A stretch of 64,000 bases of DNA, taken from Synechococcus sp. Cruz-7E5. GTDB taxonomy: Bacteria; Cyanobacteriota; Cyanobacteriia; PCC-6307; Cyanobiaceae. The stretch is from NCBI RefSeq assembly GCF_024345995.1, contig NZ_JAGQCE010000005.1, positions 124,001 through 188,000 on the forward strand. Direction: 5' to 3'. Shown piece after piece: positions 564 through 8,472 of this stretch. Under the pieces are notes generated by a model. It was given only the letters and a program-made list of their open reading frames with translations, was not told the DNA's origin and searched no databases. Positions within the stretch are counted from its first letter, which is position 1, and the number at the start of each line of letters is the position of its first letter. A program made the translations under genes and the position numbers.

Positions 564-2897
564 TCAGGTCTGGCGTCCCGCCCCGATCGCGGCCATGTAC
601 CGCCCCCAGAGCTCGGCCACCAGGGCACCGCTGGCCGCCTGCGCCGGCCGGTTGTCGTCGTTGCCCATCCAGATGGCGGTGAGGATCTCCAGCGCCGGGG
701 AGTAGCCGATGAAGAGCACATCCACGCCGTTGTCGGTGGTGCCGGTCTTGCCGCGGCCATCAGCCACCAGCGCAGCTGCCCGCCCCGTGCCGCTTCGCAC
801 CACCCCCGCCAGCAGATCGTCCATCGCCGCAGCGTCTTCCTCGCGCAGCAGCTGGCGCGGCTGCTCACCGATGGGGGTGGTCACCCCCCGCTCCGGGCAG
901 GTGGCAAGGCTGTAGATCGAACGGCAGATGCCCAGGTCGTAGATCTTGCTGACGCCGTGCATCGGCACGCTGCGGCCCCCATTGGCCACCACGGCATAGG
1001 CCCGGGCCATCTCGTAGAGGAGGGTTTCACGGCCGCCGAGCATGGTGTTGAGATCGGCGTCGAGGGGGGTGCTGATCCCCAGCTGGCGGGCCTTGCGCAG
1101 CACCTGCTTCAGGCCGGCTGTCTCCGCCAGACGCAGGGCCACCACGTTCTCGGAATCGGCGAAGCCCCTGGCCACGCTGACGCTCCCGCCGGCGGCACCG
1201 TGGCGGCAGCCCGCCACGTAGGCCAGGGGGGCACAGGAGATGGGCTGCTCAGGGCTGGTGCCGGCCTCAAGCGCCGCCAGGTAGGGGAAAAGCTTGAAGG
1301 TGGAGCCCGGCTGGCGCATGGCCTGCACCCGGTCGAAGCTGGAGCGGGAGTAATCACCGCCACCCACGTAGGCCAGGATCTTGCCGCTGCGGTAATTGAG
1401 AGAGATCAGGGCCCCCTGGGTGAGCCCCACCCGCGCGGCCGGGCCCTCAAGGAAGCGCTGCAACTGCTGCTGGGCAAGTTGCTGCAACTTCGGATCGATC
1501 GTGCTCACCACGTAGTAGTTGCCGCCTGAAGCTTTCTGCGAAAGGTTGAGGCCGAAGCGGGTACCTTCCAGTTCGCCGAGCACGTAGTCGCTGAAGAAGG
1601 GATAGCTGGAGAAGCTGGATTCGCGGCAGGCCGAGGGATCGATGTTCAGGGGCCGCCGCTGGGCATCGATCAGCTGCTGATCACGCAGATAGCCCTGCTC
1701 ATGCATCAGCTTGAGCACCAGGTCGCGGCGCTCGCGGCCGGCAGTGGGATCCTTGGTATTGCATGGGCTGTAACCATTGGGGCTGGGCAGCAGGCCCACC
1801 AGGAAGGCCGCCTGGCCCACGTCCAGGTCACTGGCCGACTTGCGGAAGTAGAGCCTGGACGCCTGCTCGAAGCCATCGGTGCCGAGACCAAGATGGGCCC
1901 GGTCGAGGTACATCTTCAGGATTTGGTTCTTGCTGTAGCCCACCTCCAGTTGCAGGGCCACCCACAGCTCCCGCAGCTTGCGGCTGAGGCTGTAGTCGGT
2001 GCCCACCTCGGGGTAATAGATGCGGGCCACCTGCTGGGTGAGGCCGCTGCCGCCGCCGCTGCGCAGCAGAACCGAGCGCAGGGTGCCGAACAGATCGACC
2101 CCGCTGTTCCAGCCGAAGCGCGCCTCTTCCGAAGCCATCAGCGCCTGGCGCAGGTGCAGGGGATAGGACTGGAGGGAGGGCAGAGCGGTGGCGGAGCCCT
2201 CCTTGGCGTCGATCTGCTGACCCGAGGCTGAGACGATCTTGACGGGGCCTGAGATCAGGCGAATGCGCGAGCCGCCACCGATGGAGGAGACCAGCAGCAG
2301 CCCCCCCACCAGCAGCCCCGACCCCAGCAGGCTGGCCAGGCCCAGCAGGTGCACCGCCTGCTCCAGCGGACTGCGGGGGTGCAGGTAACGCAGGCGCGGA
2401 GCCGAGCCCTTGAGCGGTGATCCCAGCTGCACCTGATCAGCGTGGCGCAGACGGATGGAGCGAATGCGCCGATCGCGGTGGAACAGGCCGTTGGCGGAAT
2501 TGAAGTCGTCGAGGGCGAAATCACGATCCCTGCAGCGGGGTTTCTCCAGGATGGCGTGCACGCGGCTGAGGCTCTCCGCCTCGATCGGCAGCTCGCAGGC
2601 TGGATCACGGCCGATGCGATAACGACCCTCTGCCAGCACGGTGCGGCTGACCCGCCGCTCCCCCAGCCACAGCTCTGCCACAGCCTGGCGCTCCAGCAGC
2701 TGGCTCCAGGCCGAGCGGATGGCGGCAGGGCGCCCGTGAGGCCCTCCGCTGCTCCAGGCGGCCAGAAAACGCCGCCAGGCCCCGCGACGACCACCGGCCA
2801 GCGGCTGCCCAGCGCTGGAGCGAGAGTCCTGATCGGTGGTGGTGGCGGGGCCAGAGGCCTGCTCGCGGACACCCTCAGGAGAGGACGGCTCGACCAT
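564..2897 (-). CDS. FHA domain-bifunctional penicillin-binding protein (class A PBP)
   Basis: Predicted 777-aa membrane-anchored peptidoglycan glycosyltransferase/transpeptidase with an N-terminal FHA phosphothreonine-binding domain. FHA signature GRYRIGRDPACELPIE and SRVHAIL at about residues 91-117; one membrane segment at about 182-204; GT51 glycosyltransferase about 230-400, with Glu257/Glu258 in the EEARFGWNSGVD region and the later LTQQVARIYYP motif; transpeptidase with SxxK at Ser532-Lys535 (GSTFK), SEN at 582-584 and KTGTT from 717. The ATG at 2897 was chosen because the longer frame upstream reads as low-complexity antisense to the divergent gene. In class A PBPs the N terminus is cytoplasmic, so the FHA domain would face the cytosol, where the neighbouring kinase acts. 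It diverges from the FHA/kinase/vWA/PP2C run, which suggests phosphorylation-dependent control of wall synthesis (inference). Catalytic motifs are intact. Confidence 0.9.
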   Translation of the reverse strand: MVEPSSPEGVREQASGPATTTDQDSRSSAGQPLAGGRRGAWRRFLAAWSSGGPHGRPAAIRSAWSQLLERQAVAELWLGERRVSRTVLAEGRYRIGRDPACELPIEAESLSRVHAILEKPRCRDRDFALDDFNSANGLFHRDRRIRSIRLRHADQVQLGSPLKGSAPRLRYLHPRSPLEQAVHLLGLASLLGSGLLVGGLLLVSSIGGGSRIRLISGPVKIVSASGQQIDAKEGSATALPSLQSYPLHLRQALMASEEARFGWNSGVDLFGTLRSVLLRSGGGSGLTQQVARIYYPEVGTDYSLSRKLRELWVALQLEVGYSKNQILKMYLDRAHLGLGTDGFEQASRLYFRKSASDLDVGQAAFLVGLLPSPNGYSPCNTKDPTAGRERRDLVLKLMHEQGYLRDQQLIDAQRRPLNIDPSACRESSFSSYPFFSDYVLGELEGTRFGLNLSQKASGGNYYVVSTIDPKLQQLAQQQLQRFLEGPAARVGLTQGALISLNYRSGKILAYVGGGDYSRSSFDRVQAMRQPGSTFKLFPYLAALEAGTSPEQPISCAPLAYVAGCRHGAAGGSVSVARGFADSENVVALRLAETAGLKQVLRKARQLGISTPLDADLNTMLGGRETLLYEMARAYAVVANGGRSVPMHGVSKIYDLGICRSIYSLATCPERGVTTPIGEQPRQLLREEDAAAMDDLLAGVVRSGTGRAAALVADGRGKTGTTDNGVDVLFIGYSPALEILTAIWMGNDDNRPAQAASGALVAELWGRYMAAIGAGRQT

Positions 2898-2954
2898 GCG
2901 GAGAATGAACTGGCGTGCCCGGGGATACGCTACGCGCAGCGATCTCCTCGCCCC

Positions 2955-3230
2955 GTGCTGCGCCAGCGCGATCCCTGGGAGCCCTTCAGGCTCTGGCTGG
3001 CCATCACGATCGGGCTTTATGCGATCCGGGCCAGCTTCGCCGCCACCTGGGTGGGGGCCATCCCGGGCTGGGTGCTGCTGGTTCTGGTCCTGGTTGCCCT
3101 GCTGCTGGCCAGCAAGGCCCTGCTCTTTCCCGGCCGTGTCACTGCACACCGCGCCGGCGATGGGGGCTGGTGGAGCGATCTCCAGGACGACAGGCGCCTG
3201 TGGTGGCGGCGGCGCCGCGGAAACCCATGA
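2955..3230 (+). CDS. Small membrane protein opening the FHA/kinase operon
   Basis: Unrecognised 91-aa protein read from a GTG. One long hydrophobic region (roughly residues 10-57, with IPGWVLLVLVLVALLLASKA) suggests two membrane helices. It is followed by a Trp/Arg-rich cytoplasmic tail (WWSDLQDDRRLWWRRRR). Its stop overlaps the start of the next FHA gene as ATGA, which implies translational coupling and is the main support for its reality. The GTG lies 58 bp from the divergent PBP start, so both promoters must fit in that gap or inside the genes. No ATG occurs in frame near the hydrophobic part; the frame is open further upstream but becomes antisense to the PBP gene. Confidence 0.6.
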   Translation: MLRQRDPWEPFRLWLAITIGLYAIRASFAATWVGAIPGWVLLVLVLVALLLASKALLFPGRVTAHRAGDGGWWSDLQDDRRLWWRRRRGNP

Positions 3231-3916
3231 CCCAGCCTCCAGCCCAGCTGCGGTTGCGGGATCAGCCGGGCAAGGTGGCCCGGCTCGATCCAGCCAGGCC
3301 GCTCACGATCGGGCGTGAGCGCAGCAATCGCCTGTGCATGCCAGAGCAGGACGGACTCTCGCCCCACCACGCCGTGGTTCGCCACTCCAGCAGCCATCAG
3401 CGCTGGGTGGTATGCGACTGGCAAAGCACCGATGGCACCTTTCTCCAGGGGGAACGCCTTATGCAGTGCCGGCCCCTGGCCGATGGCGATGAAATCCGGC
3501 TTGGACGCAGCGGACCGGTGCTGATCTTCGAGCTGACCGCTGCTGCTGCGTTGCAGCCAGTGGTCCCGCCCGTGGCGCCTGCCGTCAGCAGCCTCGACAT
3601 CGGTGGCCAGCAGATCGATCTGGATCAGATCCGATCGGCCACTGTGCAGAGCCTGCCACGCCATCCCCACATCTTCAGCTGGTGGTTGCTGGTGTGCCTG
3701 GGGGGCCTGCTGCTGCTGCCGTTCCCGTTCCTGTTCTGGCCGCTGCAAGTGGCGGCCCTGGCCGGCTGGATCCTGCTGGGCTCCCGCAAGGAGCACACCC
3801 TCACCGTGGTGCTGCGTGATGGCCGCGCCCAGCGTCGCAGCTTCGCCAACCGGCTCACGGCTCTCTCCCACCGCAATGGGATCCGCAAGGCCATCGGCCA
3901 GAGTCTGGAGGCCTGA
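3227..3916 (+). CDS. FHA domain membrane protein
   Basis: Protein of 229 aa with an N-terminal FHA fold and a C-terminal membrane hairpin. The FHA signature is LTIGRERSNRLCMPEQ followed by LSPHHAVV, then TDGTFLQGERL and ADGDEIRLG, within about residues 5-105. FHA domains bind phosphothreonine peptides, so it is a likely reader or substrate adaptor for the adjacent Ser/Thr kinase. A hydrophobic double span (about residues 147-185, including WWLLVCLGGLLLLPFPFLFW) anchors it, leaving a short basic C terminus. The ATG overlaps the stop of the upstream small membrane gene; the kinase GTG follows 19 bp after its stop. The partner phosphoprotein is not identifiable from sequence. Confidence 0.85.
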   Translation: MTQPPAQLRLRDQPGKVARLDPARPLTIGRERSNRLCMPEQDGLSPHHAVVRHSSSHQRWVVCDWQSTDGTFLQGERLMQCRPLADGDEIRLGRSGPVLIFELTAAAALQPVVPPVAPAVSSLDIGGQQIDLDQIRSATVQSLPRHPHIFSWWLLVCLGGLLLLPFPFLFWPLQVAALAGWILLGSRKEHTLTVVLRDGRAQRRSFANRLTALSHRNGIRKAIGQSLEA

Positions 3917-3935
3917 GACCCCAAGCCAGCCCTCC

Positions 3936-5270
3936 GTGAACTGGATCCTGCCGGAAGGCGCCAGCCTTGATCTGGAGGGGATCTCCAGCCCCCTGCAGGT
4001 GCTGCGCGGGCTCGGTGGCGGCACCCAGGGCCAGGTGTTCGAGGTGGAGGTGGCCGGCGAACGGCTGGCCCTGAAGTGGTATCTGCCGGCGTGCATTGCC
4101 CGCGATCCCCACCTGGAGCGGCGTCTGGGGGAGAGCATCCGCGCCACGGCCCCCAGCGACGCCTTCCTCTGGCCCCTGGCGCTGGTGAAATCCAGCCAGG
4201 GCGCGGTGCCGTTGCTGCGCCGCGGCGAACCGAGCTTCGGCTACCTGATGGAGCTGCGACCCACGGGTTTTGTGGGGGCCCATGAACACGTGGGCGGCCA
4301 CCTGGCCATCGGCCTGCTCCAGGTCCTGCGGGCCAGCTTTTTCCTGGCTGAGGCCTTCCATGCCCTCCACCTCAAGGGCCTCTGTTACAAGGACATCTCC
4401 CTGGGCAACCTGTTCCTGGAAGCCTCCAGCGGCCGGATCCTGATCTGCGACAACGACAACGTGGATGTGGATGGGCGGGATCTGGGCAGCGTGCTCGGCA
4501 CCCCCGGGTTCATGGCCCCGGAGATCCTGATGGGCCGGGCCCGGCCGGGAGCCAACAGCGATCTCTTCTCCCTGGCGGTACTGATCTTCCGCCTGCTCAC
4601 CCGCCACGACCCCCTGCGGGGCCGCCGCGAACTGGCGATCCGCTGCCTGGATGAGCCCGCCCGACGCCGGCTCTATGGCGAAGAACCGCTGTTCATCTTC
4701 GATCCGGCTGATCCGAGCAACCGACCCGATCCGATCGAGCACGTCGCAGCCCTGATCACCTGGCCGATTTACCCCGAGCCGATCAAGCAGCTGTTCGAGC
4801 AGACCTTCTGCACAGGTCTACAGGCCCCCCAGCGCCGGGCCCTGACCGGCCAGTGGATGGCGGCCCTGGCCGCGGCCCTCGACCAGCGTCAGCTCTGCGC
4901 CAGCTGCGGCCAGGAAACGTTCCCCGCCCCAAGCGATCCGGCCCCCTTGTGCTGGAGCTGCGGCTGCCCCATGCCACCCCCTGGCAGGCTGCTTCTGCCC
5001 CATGGCCAGGTGACGGCGGCGCCCGGTAACGAGCTGCATGCCCACCACTTCGACCGCCTGCTACCTCTGCGGCTGAATCAACCCCTGGCCCGGGTGGAAG
5101 CCCATCCCAGTGATGGCGACCTGCTGGGGCTGCGTAACCTCAGCGGCCAGAGCTGGCAGGCCGAGCTCAGGACCGGCAACCGGCTGATGGTGGAGCCGGG
5201 ACAAGCCTGTAACCTCGCGCCACTGGTGCGGATCACCACACCGGCCGGGGCGGTCGAGCTGCCCTCCTGA
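3936..5270 (+). CDS. Ser/Thr protein kinase with C-terminal zinc ribbon (TerY-P triad type)
   Basis: Predicted 444-aa Hanks-type kinase starting at GTG, chosen because the N terminus then leads straight into the glycine loop; further upstream the frame overlaps the FHA gene. Motifs: glycine loop GLGGGTQGQVFEV (about 26-37), catalytic Lys47 in LALKWY, catalytic loop YKDISLGN with Asp153 and Asn158, a divergent DFG equivalent CDNDN (Asp172), and the P+1/APE motif GTPGFMAPE (188-196). The C terminus carries CASC and CWSC pairs (Cys321, 324, 339, 342), typical of a zinc ribbon. YKDIS replaces the usual HRD and DND replaces DFG; the key Asp and Lys are kept, so activity is expected. Kinases of this type occur beside vWA and PP2C genes, exactly as here. 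No membrane segment is visible, so it is probably cytoplasmic. Confidence 0.88.
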   Translation: MNWILPEGASLDLEGISSPLQVLRGLGGGTQGQVFEVEVAGERLALKWYLPACIARDPHLERRLGESIRATAPSDAFLWPLALVKSSQGAVPLLRRGEPSFGYLMELRPTGFVGAHEHVGGHLAIGLLQVLRASFFLAEAFHALHLKGLCYKDISLGNLFLEASSGRILICDNDNVDVDGRDLGSVLGTPGFMAPEILMGRARPGANSDLFSLAVLIFRLLTRHDPLRGRRELAIRCLDEPARRRLYGEEPLFIFDPADPSNRPDPIEHVAALITWPIYPEPIKQLFEQTFCTGLQAPQRRALTGQWMAALAAALDQRQLCASCGQETFPAPSDPAPLCWSCGCPMPPPGRLLLPHGQVTAAPGNELHAHHFDRLLPLRLNQPLARVEAHPSDGDLLGLRNLSGQSWQAELRTGNRLMVEPGQACNLAPLVRITTPAGAVELPS

Positions 5271-5293
5271 GCCATCTCTCGAGCCCAGATCCG

Positions 5294-6076
5294 ATGCCCT
5301 TTCCCAACGTCAGGCTCGCCAACCGGCCGCTGCATTTCATCTACATCTGCGACTGCTCCGGCTCAATGGCGGCCCAGGGCAAGATCCAGGCCCTCAATCA
5401 GGCGATTCGCCAGTCGTTGCCGGGAATGGCCGAGGTGGCTCGCCAGAACCCGGAGGCGCGGGTGCTGGTGCGGGCCGTGAGCTTTGCTGACAGGGCCATC
5501 TGGCACCTGGAGCAGCCCACGGAGGTGCAGCAGCTGCAGTGGCTGGATCTGCAGGCCGGAGGCATCACGGCCATGGGCGAAGCACTGGAGCTGGTGGCGG
5601 CGGTGCTTCAGTCGCCGCCGATGGAGGAGAGGGCCCTGCCGCCGGTGCTCGTGCTGATCTCCGACGGCCAGCCCACCGACGACTTCGACGCCGGCCTGGC
5701 CAGCCTGATGCGTCAGCCCTGGGCCCAGAAAGCGGTGCGCCTGGCGATCGCCATGGGCCATGACGCCGACACGGAGGTGTTGCAGCAGTTCATCGGCAGT
5801 GACCCCGGCGGTGGGTTGCCCGCTGGTGAAATCCCTGGCGCCAGCGGGCAGACCCCAATGCACCGCTCGGGCCGCTCGCCCCGCCGGCCCCTGCAGGCCA
5901 GCAGCGCCACCTCGCTGGCCCAGTACATCCAGTGGGCATCCACCGCAGTGGTGGGCGCAGCGTCGATGCCCGCCAGCCGCATGGCTGGCTCGGGGCCCCA
6001 GCCCAACATCCCCCTGCCGGATCTGCCCCCCACCCTGATGGATCCCACCGACGACGTCGGTCCCCTGGTGTGGTGA
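5294..6076 (+). CDS. vWA domain protein, TerY-like
   Basis: A 260-aa protein with a von Willebrand A domain in its first ~190 residues. The metal-ion-dependent adhesion site is visible: DCSGSM (Asp20, Ser22, Ser24), the later threonine in GGITAMGEAL, and the acidic loop ISDGQPTDD. TerY-family vWA proteins bind a divalent metal and act as scaffolds in Ter-associated phosphosignalling; here it sits between a kinase and a PP2C phosphatase. The C-terminal ~80 residues are Pro/Ser/Arg-rich and probably disordered, a possible phosphorylation target (inference). Its stop overlaps the GTG of the phosphatase gene (GTGA), supporting coupled translation. No signal peptide is present, so it is cytoplasmic. 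Confidence 0.85.
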   Translation: MPFPNVRLANRPLHFIYICDCSGSMAAQGKIQALNQAIRQSLPGMAEVARQNPEARVLVRAVSFADRAIWHLEQPTEVQQLQWLDLQAGGITAMGEALELVAAVLQSPPMEERALPPVLVLISDGQPTDDFDAGLASLMRQPWAQKAVRLAIAMGHDADTEVLQQFIGSDPGGGLPAGEIPGASGQTPMHRSGRSPRRPLQASSATSLAQYIQWASTAVVGAASMPASRMAGSGPQPNIPLPDLPPTLMDPTDDVGPLVW

Positions 6077-7407
6077 GCGGCTGGAGGCCAGCTCTCCAGG
6101 CCAGGCGCGTCGGCGCGGCCCATCGGCGCCAGGGCCGCCCCTGCCAGGACGCGGTGGCCGTCTGCCGATACCCCAGCCGAGATGGCCAGCCCGTGCAGGT
6201 GATGGCGGTGGCCGATGGCCACGGCGGTGAGCACTATCTCTTCAGCGACGTTGGCAGCGCCCTGGCCTGTGACCTGGCCCTGCAGGTGGCGGGGGAGCAC
6301 CTGGGCCTCTGGGACCTGCAGGGCGCACAGGCACCGGGGCTTGACACATGGGCCCACTGGCTTTCGTCCGAGCTGCCCCAACGGATCCACAGCCGCTGGC
6401 TGGCTCTGGTGCGGGAGCACTGGCAGCGGCACACGGCCCTTTCCTCAGCTCCGGATCAGGCTCCCAGTTCTGAAGTCCCCCTACCCGAGGGCGAGGTGCC
6501 ACGCCTCTACGGCACCACCCTGGGGCTGGTGGTGCTGGCCCCCCGTTGGTGGGGTTACACCGGTTTGGGCGACTGGGACCTGGTGCAGGTGGGCGCCGAT
6601 GGGCAGGCCGCGCTGCTCAGCGAGGAAACGGCGGGGGATGGCGGCGGCGAGGCCACGGGCAGCCTCTGCCTGGAGCAGGCCGCCGGGCTGTTCCGCAGCG
6701 GACTGGAGCCGATCGAGCACCCAGAAGCCACCTTCGGCCTGCTGCTGAGCACCGATGGCATCCGCAAATCGTGCGCCACCGACACGGATTTCCTGTTGCT
6801 CGCCGCTCACCTGATCGCCACACCTGCCGAGGGAGCCAGCGAGGTGCTGGCCACGAACCTGGATCAGATCACCAGCGAAGGCAGCGGCGATGACGTTTCA
6901 GTCGCGATAGCCCAGCACGGCAGCCTCTGCACCCCCAGCCTCCTCACCCGCAGCCAGGTGAACATCAGCGAGGAGAAAGCGCCTGGCGATCTGCCCATTG
7001 AGGCAATGACCATTCGCGCCCAGAAACCCTTGCTGCTCGGGGCCTTACTGGTGGCCACCGCCGGCCTCGGGGCCGGCTGGTACTGGCTGCAGCACTGGAG
7101 CATGGCCCCCGCCCCCCCAAGTGCCGTTCGGCGCCAGATCAACCAGCTCTGCCAGGGCCCCGCCAACGCCATCGCCGGCACCCTCAGCAACCGGCGCAGC
7201 CAGTTCACGGATCTGCGCCAAGGGCGCCTCACAGCCCCGCCCTTACTGGACTCGGCCGATCTGGATCCTCTCGGGGCCCTGATCGCCCGCAGCTTTGATC
7301 CCGCCTCAGGTGGGATGGTGCAGGGGGAGGCCCTCACGGCACTCGGTCTCTGCCCACTCCTCGCTGCTGCCCTGCAGCGTCAATGGCAACCCCCCGACCA
7401 TCCCTGA
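6073..7407 (+). CDS. PP2C-family protein phosphatase with a membrane segment
   Basis: A 444-aa PPM/PP2C-type Ser/Thr phosphatase starting at a GTG that overlaps the preceding stop. Metal-site motifs are visible: CQDAVAV near residue 25, ADGHGG (Asp48), GTTLGLVV and GYTGLGDWDL in the middle, LLSTDGIRKS at about residue 225, and the terminal GSGDDVSVAI at about residue 272. After the catalytic domain comes a single hydrophobic span (about 320-338, LLLGALLVATAGLGAGWYW) and a ~100-aa tail, so the phosphatase is likely membrane-tethered with the tail on the other side. It completes the kinase/vWA/phosphatase triad and would reverse phosphorylation by the neighbouring kinase (inference). Confidence 0.87.
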   Translation: MSGWRPALQARRVGAAHRRQGRPCQDAVAVCRYPSRDGQPVQVMAVADGHGGEHYLFSDVGSALACDLALQVAGEHLGLWDLQGAQAPGLDTWAHWLSSELPQRIHSRWLALVREHWQRHTALSSAPDQAPSSEVPLPEGEVPRLYGTTLGLVVLAPRWWGYTGLGDWDLVQVGADGQAALLSEETAGDGGGEATGSLCLEQAAGLFRSGLEPIEHPEATFGLLLSTDGIRKSCATDTDFLLLAAHLIATPAEGASEVLATNLDQITSEGSGDDVSVAIAQHGSLCTPSLLTRSQVNISEEKAPGDLPIEAMTIRAQKPLLLGALLVATAGLGAGWYWLQHWSMAPAPPSAVRRQINQLCQGPANAIAGTLSNRRSQFTDLRQGRLTAPPLLDSADLDPLGALIARSFDPASGGMVQGEALTALGLCPLLAAALQRQWQPPDHP

Positions 7408-7419
7408 TCCCCCCGACCG

Positions 7420-8472
7420 ATGAACGACCACCAGCTCGGAGCCGCCCTCAGGCAGCAGGTGCTCAGCGACCTCCAGCGCGGCCGCGGCGCCGAGGGCCGT
7501 CGTTTACAGGCGCTGGCCGGAGACCTCTGCGGCGAGGAGCAGATCAAGCTGCTGCCGGCCCTGCGCCATCTGGTGCTCTCAGCCGCCTTCGCCAGTGCGG
7601 CCAGCCAGAGCCCGCCCCTCTCCGATTCGCGGCTGCTGCCCAGGCTGATGCAGGAACTGGAGGAGGTGTTCAACCCAGCCATCTGCCAGCGCATGCAGAG
7701 CGTGGTGGGGGGACTGATCGGCCTGCCGCCCAAGGACGTCTCAAGCTCAGGCTCAAACTCAGCCCCAGCAGCAGCCCCAGCAGCGGCAGCAGAAGGAGCA
7801 ATGCCAAAGGCGGCGGCACGGATTCAGCCAGCGCGCAGATCTGCAGTGCCAGCTCCTGTGACTCCCCTCCAGCCTCCTGCCACTCAACCCCTGCAGGCTC
7901 CGGCCAGGCGAGGCGGGGGCAGCAATGCCGTGCTCGGTGTTCTCGCCTTCCTCACCGGCGGCCTGGCGGTAGCCCTTGTGGGCGCCGTGGTGCTGCTTCA
8001 GAAGTCCCCGCCCAGCAGGGTGGAAAGCCCCTCCACCCCCAGGCCCAGATCGGAATCACCAACGACCGCTGAGAAACCCGCCACACCACCCCAGGAACCG
8101 AGCCTGCCGGAACCGGAGCCAATCACCGCGCCACAGCCGCCGCCGGCCAACACCGACCAGGCGATCGCCAGCGTTCAGGGCCTCTATGCCGCTCTCAGCG
8201 GCAAGACCTACGACCAGGCCCGCCGCTTCTTCGGGGGAGCTGCGGCCGATCAGTTCGATCCCGCCTTCTTCGACCAGTTCGAGCAGGTGAGCGTGTCCGA
8301 TCTGCAGGAAACCAGCCAGGACGGCTCAACCGTCACCCTCCAGGGACTGGTGACCTTCGTCTACCCCGATGGCAGCGTCCAGACCGAGAGCCGCCGTTTC
8401 AGCGTCGACACCGCCACCACTCCCGCCCTCATCACCGCAAGCGACTTCGCGGGGGTGGTCAAGCCCCGCTAG
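7420..8472 (+). CDS. Single-span membrane protein of unknown function at the end of the kinase/phosphatase operon
   Basis: Unrecognised 350-aa protein. Residues 1-110 form a soluble, helical-looking domain containing [19 protein letters not shown]. Residues ~110-165 are a Ser/Ala/Pro linker, ~168-192 a membrane helix (VLGVLAFLTGGLAVALVGAV), and ~195-245 a Pro-rich stretch. The last ~100 residues (AIASVQGLYAALSGKTYDQA onward) form a compact domain that resembles an NTF2-like fold in its pattern of helices and then strands; this is an inference without a search. It follows the phosphatase by 12 bp, so it is probably the last gene of the operon. Such an N-in, C-out layout could carry a phospho-signal across the membrane. 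Confidence 0.75.
   Translation: MNDHQLGAALRQQVLSDLQRGRGAEGRRLQALAGDLCGEEQIKLLPALRHLVLSAAFASAASQSPPLSDSRLLPRLMQELEEVFNPAICQRMQSVVGGLIGLPPKDVSSSGSNSAPAAAPAAAAEGAMPKAAARIQPARRSAVPAPVTPLQPPATQPLQAPARRGGGSNAVLGVLAFLTGGLAVALVGAVVLLQKSPPSRVESPSTPRPRSESPTTAEKPATPPQEPSLPEPEPITAPQPPPANTDQAIASVQGLYAALSGKTYDQARRFFGGAAADQFDPAFFDQFEQVSVSDLQETSQDGSTVTLQGLVTFVYPDGSVQTESRRFSVDTATTPALITASDFAGVVKPR

Follow-up and report, generated by a model that had tools for sequence, protein, structure and literature searches.

A TerY-P-type kinase block in freshwater picocyanobacteria and its possible control of a dedicated FHA-fused penicillin-binding protein

What does a TerY-P kinase triad act on, and what feeds a penicillin-binding protein (PBP) that carries an FHA domain? 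Both questions are raised by a seven-gene locus at 564–8472 of a 64,000-nucleotide stretch (the window; contig NZ_JAGQCE010000005.1, positions 124,001–188,000) of Synechococcus sp. Cruz-7E5, a picocyanobacterium near Synechococcus sp. J7-Johnson and WH 5701. The best-known cases of direct control of peptidoglycan synthases by phosphosignalling are those of actinobacteria and firmicutes; the cellular targets of TerY-P triads are largely unknown, and the literature we searched held no paper on what feeds cyanobacterial FHA-PBPs. An initial annotation, made from the sequence alone, had described an extended triad wired to a cell-wall synthase, and open frames and Pfam searches placed all seven genes where it had put them: an FHA-fused class A PBP on the minus strand and, on the plus strand, a small membrane protein, an FHA membrane protein, a kinase, a vWA protein, a PP2C phosphatase and a 350-amino-acid membrane protein (Table 1). 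On balance we favour the reading that these genes form a self-contained module in which the kinase/phosphatase pair, through FHA domains, would control a dedicated cell-wall synthase. Chance does not explain the arrangement, because its order recurs in family loci and its active-site residues are conserved: the order PBP (minus strand), small membrane protein, FHA membrane protein, kinase, vWA protein, PP2C is the same in the window and in all 41 PBP-bearing loci of the family (two of the family loci compared are interrupted by contig ends), and the only departures are two Prochlorococcus loci that hold the triad alone.

The TerY-P triad comprises a vWA protein, a PP2C and a kinase with a zinc ribbon (PMC11090510, PMC4978471; after Anantharaman et al. 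2012), and its identification here was borne out in detail. The same three proteins are adjacent, the Ser/Thr kinase ends in a zinc ribbon whose four cysteines are invariant in 64 relatives, and kinase residues K47, D153, N158 and D172, the metal-ion-dependent adhesion site (MIDAS) of the vWA protein and the D/GDD motifs of the PP2C are all intact and vary little or not at all among 42–45 family members, with the metal-binding residues of the PP2C invariant. The kinase motifs read K47, YKD(153)...N158, DND(172–174) and APE, YKD and DND standing where kinases usually have HRD and DFG. Its structure model (mean predicted local distance difference test score, pLDDT, 93) matches protein kinases in the PDB, including PknA and PknB of M. 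tuberculosis, and shows a beta domain C-terminal to the zinc ribbon. This post-ribbon beta domain recurs C-terminally in other proteins near triads, among them a vWA membrane protein (L082:16408–18198). Hydropathy gave no convincing transmembrane (TM) helix in the kinase, one borderline segment lying within the kinase fold, and a Pfam search found no PASTA domain. In the PP2C, a C-terminal extension follows the catalytic domain; it may contain a TM segment, one that the hydropathy scan did not flag. Overlaps of 4 nucleotides occur at two junctions only (small/FHA membrane proteins, 3227–3230; vWA/PP2C, 6073–6076), the remaining plus-strand junctions being gaps of 12–23 nucleotides; of the overlapping junctions initially described for the triad, that of vWA and PP2C therefore holds, whereas the kinase and vWA genes are separated by a short gap.

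The vWA protein ends in a conserved tail of the pattern NIPLPDLPPT(L/V)xDP..DVGPLVW, with DLPPT in 42/42 family members and an Asp three residues after the Thr (T-x-x-D) in 37/42. An Asp at +3 suits the preference of some FHA domains, and we put forward the DLPPTxxD threonine as a candidate phosphosite. Among the vWA proteins of the window and of L041–L119, the tail's terminal Trp occurs in 42/42 from the family and in about 36/38 from other phyla, and such a Trp-ended tail may be a docking motif.

The window PBP consists of a cytoplasmic FHA domain, one TM helix (residues 185–203, by hydropathy), a GT51 transglycosylase and a transpeptidase. It is not the core cyanobacterial FHA-PBP, whose copy, with the same domain order, a conserved phosphothreonine pocket and 41% identity, lies at a separate location in the genome (G000:C1:470356–472452). 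Of the other oxygenic cyanobacteria sampled, nearly all have a core FHA-fused class A PBP, whether or not they have the kinase (the underlying alignments span the FHA region), and its phosphothreonine pocket is invariant. The fusion alone is thus not special to the locus, since it is general in cyanobacteria that do not carry this kinase, and we rejected it as a unique feature. In a tree rooted on FHA-less PBPs, the paralogues form a clade apart from the core, sister to the family's own core copies (Shimodaira–Hasegawa-like approximate likelihood ratio test, 96), on a stem that measures 1.35 changes per site compared with 0.59 for the core. The paralogue thus appears to have arisen when the core FHA-PBP was duplicated within this family, and to have changed fast afterwards, a stem of this length still permitting an artefact. 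An origin before cyanobacterial diversification, left possible by a midpoint tree, was set aside when the FHA-less rooting placed the paralogue beside the family core copies.

Conservation within the paralogue is uneven across its domains. All 39 paralogues keep the R, S, H and N of the FHA pocket and the SxxK, SxN and KTG motifs of the transpeptidase, and in the same 39, aligned with solved PBP1a, three transglycosylase positions carry substitutions: Asn for His in GT51 motif 1, GGSG for GGS[T/S] in motif 2 and YLD for YLN in motif 4. Core copies hold the usual residues at these positions in 27–31 of 31 cases. The canonical motifs ED..F..H.G, GGST.TQQ and YLN, present in the core, are therefore not matched by the paralogue, although the catalytic Glu of motif 1 is retained; by domain content it is still a class A PBP. 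In E. coli PBP1b, the motif 1 His and the motif 2 Thr are important for activity. A literature search for GT51 mutagenesis papers gave nothing usable. On this pattern, the functions under constraint look to be those of the FHA domain and of cross-linking, and polymerisation may have changed. The initial proposal that the locus switches peptidoglycan synthesis accordingly needs narrowing: with the transglycosylase site altered, such a switch may act on cross-linking or on recruitment of the enzyme rather than on polymerisation.

The locus belongs to freshwater Synechococcus/Cyanobium cyanobacteria. The kinase was found in 36 of 201 sampled family genomes; at close identity, the phylum sample gave no match in any other cyanobacterial family. 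Distant triad kinases (~40% identical) are spread over other cyanobacteria, Chloroflexi, Methylococcales, alphaproteobacteria and further groups. Separation of the PBP from the kinase in relatives had been named at the outset as the result that would count against the proposal; the paralogue occurs in 34 of the 201 genomes, all 34 kinase-positive, and in 0/165 kinase-negative ones, so that in this sample it is never kept in the absence of the triad. The same 34 genomes, and no others, encode the FHA membrane protein, and the two kinase-positive genomes that lack the paralogue (G141 and G260, of one genus) include Prochlorococcus sp. MIT 0701 (G141). Further evidence comes from G241, in genus g5, where no other sampled member is kinase-positive. 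In the trees of the PBP paralogue and of the kinase it falls with L061 (support 99 and 95), but its core PBP sits with that of a congener, G139 (100), and its block is flanked by neighbours other than the usual ones. On these groupings, the simplest account would be that the six-gene block was transferred whole and moves as a unit. The proposed wiring of the PBP is therefore supported by its restriction to kinase genomes and its movement with the block, but not by the FHA-PBP fusion, which is general. Correlating the distance matrices of the locus genes gave no information, since the rhomboid-like gene next to the block correlates equally well.

Domain searches of the whole genome returned three FHA domains (core PBP, window PBP and FHA membrane protein), a single PP2C_2 phosphatase, that of the locus, and three Hanks kinases above cut-off, one of them the locus kinase; as far as such searches reach, FHA signalling in this organism appears to converge on class A PBPs. 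The FHA membrane protein has, after its FHA domain, a hydrophobic region at residues ~152–170, likely a hairpin, and then a C-terminal tail; its pocket is less strict than that of the PBP (R or K in 40/42, S in 31/42). The small membrane protein, without a match in a Pfam search, holds the same position in family loci. The 350-amino-acid protein is built of a helical N-terminal domain, a Pro/Ala linker, a TM helix and a C-terminal domain that is modelled with pLDDT >90 (predicted template-modelling score for the whole protein, 0.37) and resembles NTF2-like folds (best E=2.5e-3 in a fold search); sequence searches of Pfam and the PDB yielded nothing convincing. In many loci it was not detected, so it is accessory; its role is probably that of a sensor or binding protein. 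Proteins near triads at L062:6148–6891, L082:19844–20923 and L171:8128–9300 resemble its N-terminal half and differ in their C-terminal parts.

Table 1 Features of the locus in window coordinates
Feature	Position	Strand	Evidence
FHA-fused class A PBP	564-2897	-	Pfam FHA E=1e-12, Transgly 4e-41, Transpeptidase 4e-22
FHA domain of window PBP	2421-2621	-	Pfam; phosphothreonine-pocket R, S, H, N
Small membrane protein	2955-3230	+	Open frame; 91 amino acids, GTG start, exact start uncertain
FHA membrane protein	3227-3916	+	Pfam FHA E=3e-14
FHA domain of FHA membrane protein	3305-3505	+	N-terminal
TerY-P-type Ser/Thr kinase	3936-5270	+	Pfam Pkinase E=2e-13; GTG start 3936
Zinc ribbon of kinase	4896-4961	+	C321, C324, C339, C342; CxxC-x14-CxxC
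TerY-like vWA protein	5294-6076	+	Pfam; MIDAS DCSGS...T...D intact
C-terminal vWA tail NIPLPDLPPTLMDPTDDVGPLVW	6005-6073	+	Family conservation; candidate phospho-acceptor Thr, Asp at +3
PP2C phosphatase	6073-7407	+	Pfam PP2C_2 E=3e-25
350-amino-acid membrane protein	7420-8472	+	Fold-based; accessory
NTF2-like C-terminal domain of 350-amino-acid protein	8152-8463	+	Structure model, fold search

Taken as a module, the locus would work as follows. We infer that the kinase phosphorylates threonines of partner proteins, the DLPPTxxD vWA tail being a good candidate, and that the PP2C strips the phosphates that the kinase adds. The FHA domains of the membrane FHA protein and of the PBP N-terminus would recognise the phosphate at the inner membrane and thereby recruit or switch the PBP paralogue, in which the transpeptidase motifs are preserved; an envelope signal would probably be fed in by the extracytoplasmic NTF2-like domain of the 350-amino-acid protein. 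Such an arrangement points to direct control of wall construction by protein phosphorylation in these cyanobacteria, and it offers a TerY-P triad a definite output other than defence. Furthermore, because the kinase, phosphatase, readers and a dedicated PBP are joined in one block, the input of an FHA-PBP can now be tested in strains that grow in culture, Synechococcus sp. WH 5701 for one.

Several observations weigh against this module. Genes that are linked will co-occur, and for that reason their co-occurrence is not independent evidence of function; the altered transglycosylase motifs leave room for differing roles of the PBP; the vWA tail threonine is kept in Prochlorococcus, where the paralogue is missing; and FHA effectors were found near PBP-less triads at 5 loci only. 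Core FHA-PBPs, moreover, keep the same pocket in genomes that do not carry this kinase, which means that other kinases may serve FHA-PBPs, and two further Hanks kinases are encoded in the same genome. From these last points follows an alternative that we regard as rather improbable, in which the window PBP, like the pan-cyanobacterial and triad-independent core FHA-PBPs, reads phosphorylation by general kinases and the triad merely shares its regulation or localisation; a second FHA-PBP serving general kinases would, however, need no restriction to triad genomes. We think it unlikely, too, that the PBP is a linked passenger, with the FHA membrane protein as sole reader and the output elsewhere. 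Its divergent transcription, the triads of other phyla that work without a PBP and the retention of the triad without it in Prochlorococcus would all fit a passenger, but the whole block moves together, the FHA pocket is invariant in 39/39 paralogues of a fast-evolving protein, and the FHA and small membrane proteins are likewise missing from the Prochlorococcus loci without the PBP.

A defence role, in which the locus is an anti-phage or stress-defence system and the PBP an incidental neighbour, is possible but strikes us as the least likely of these readings. TerY-P triads have been reported as anti-phage and are found in restriction islands, and the kinase weakly resembles PADLOC defence kinases. 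The PADLOC TerY match, however, reaches only E=1e-3 and the other matches are generic kinase ones, and the stand-alone anti-phage form (Gao et al. 2020) has a kinase with a C-terminal OB-fold (PMC11090510), whereas the locus kinase has a zinc ribbon plus the beta domain. Linkage to TerD is frequent in TerY-P systems and not required; the initial report of no Ter genes in the window extends to the whole genome, where a TerD search was empty, and a Ter-linked stress reading was set aside on that result. Unlike triads in restriction islands, the block contains no restriction or DNA-processing genes, brings with it an FHA membrane protein and a dedicated, co-transferred FHA-PBP, and in most family loci sits at one fixed chromosomal site, between the rhomboid-like gene and PSRP-3/Ycf65.

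Among known systems, the nearest parallel in function is found in actinobacteria, where kinases, a PBP and FHA proteins are encoded in one cluster (PMC3989709). In both cases a kinase, PP2C, PBP and FHA proteins share one conserved, cell-wall-linked locus; here, in contrast, the kinase is of the zinc-ribbon TerY-P type instead of a transmembrane PASTA kinase, an FHA domain is carried by the class A PBP itself, and the locus includes a vWA protein. The actinobacterial cluster, pknA/pknB-pstP-rodA-pbpA-fhaA/fhaB, includes pstP. We think that the locus most likely functions in the manner of this cluster, by analogy rather than locus homology; what sets it apart from both the cluster and the known triads is its dedicated FHA-PBP paralogue. 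E. coli encodes a homologous kinase (YegI), PP2C (PphC, YegK) and vWA protein (YegL) near each other, but the profile match to YegI ends before the zinc-ribbon and beta-domain part, and no FHA or PBP neighbour was seen in the 10 kb viewed.

Outside the family, no PBP was found beside the triads at the loci examined. Among triads without the PBP, in Prochlorococcus as well as beyond the family, other FHA effectors lie close by. A double-FHA ABC-2 transporter lies near the triad at L062:2858–5209 (Prochlorococcus) and L098:578–2410 (Arthrospira; by sequence), and FHA genes are divergent from the triad kinase in alphaproteobacteria at L101:8856–10061, L103:8856–9779 and L113:7399–8349, that of L103 being a guanylate cyclase plus FHA by Pfam. 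These five loci suggest that triads may use exchangeable FHA outputs. A bolder and more doubtful version, which we offer tentatively, would make TerY-P triads general switches whose FHA effector is exchanged (a PBP here, an ABC transporter in Prochlorococcus and Arthrospira, a cyclase in some alphaproteobacteria), with the duplicated PBP as a kinase-gated enzyme whose transpeptidase is intact, whose transglycosylase is weakened or changed, and whose FHA domain anchors it to the phosphorylated DLPPTxxD vWA tail. Near the Arthrospira triad there is also a beta-lactamase-like gene of the PBP-A type (L098:4208–5482), another possible link to the cell wall.

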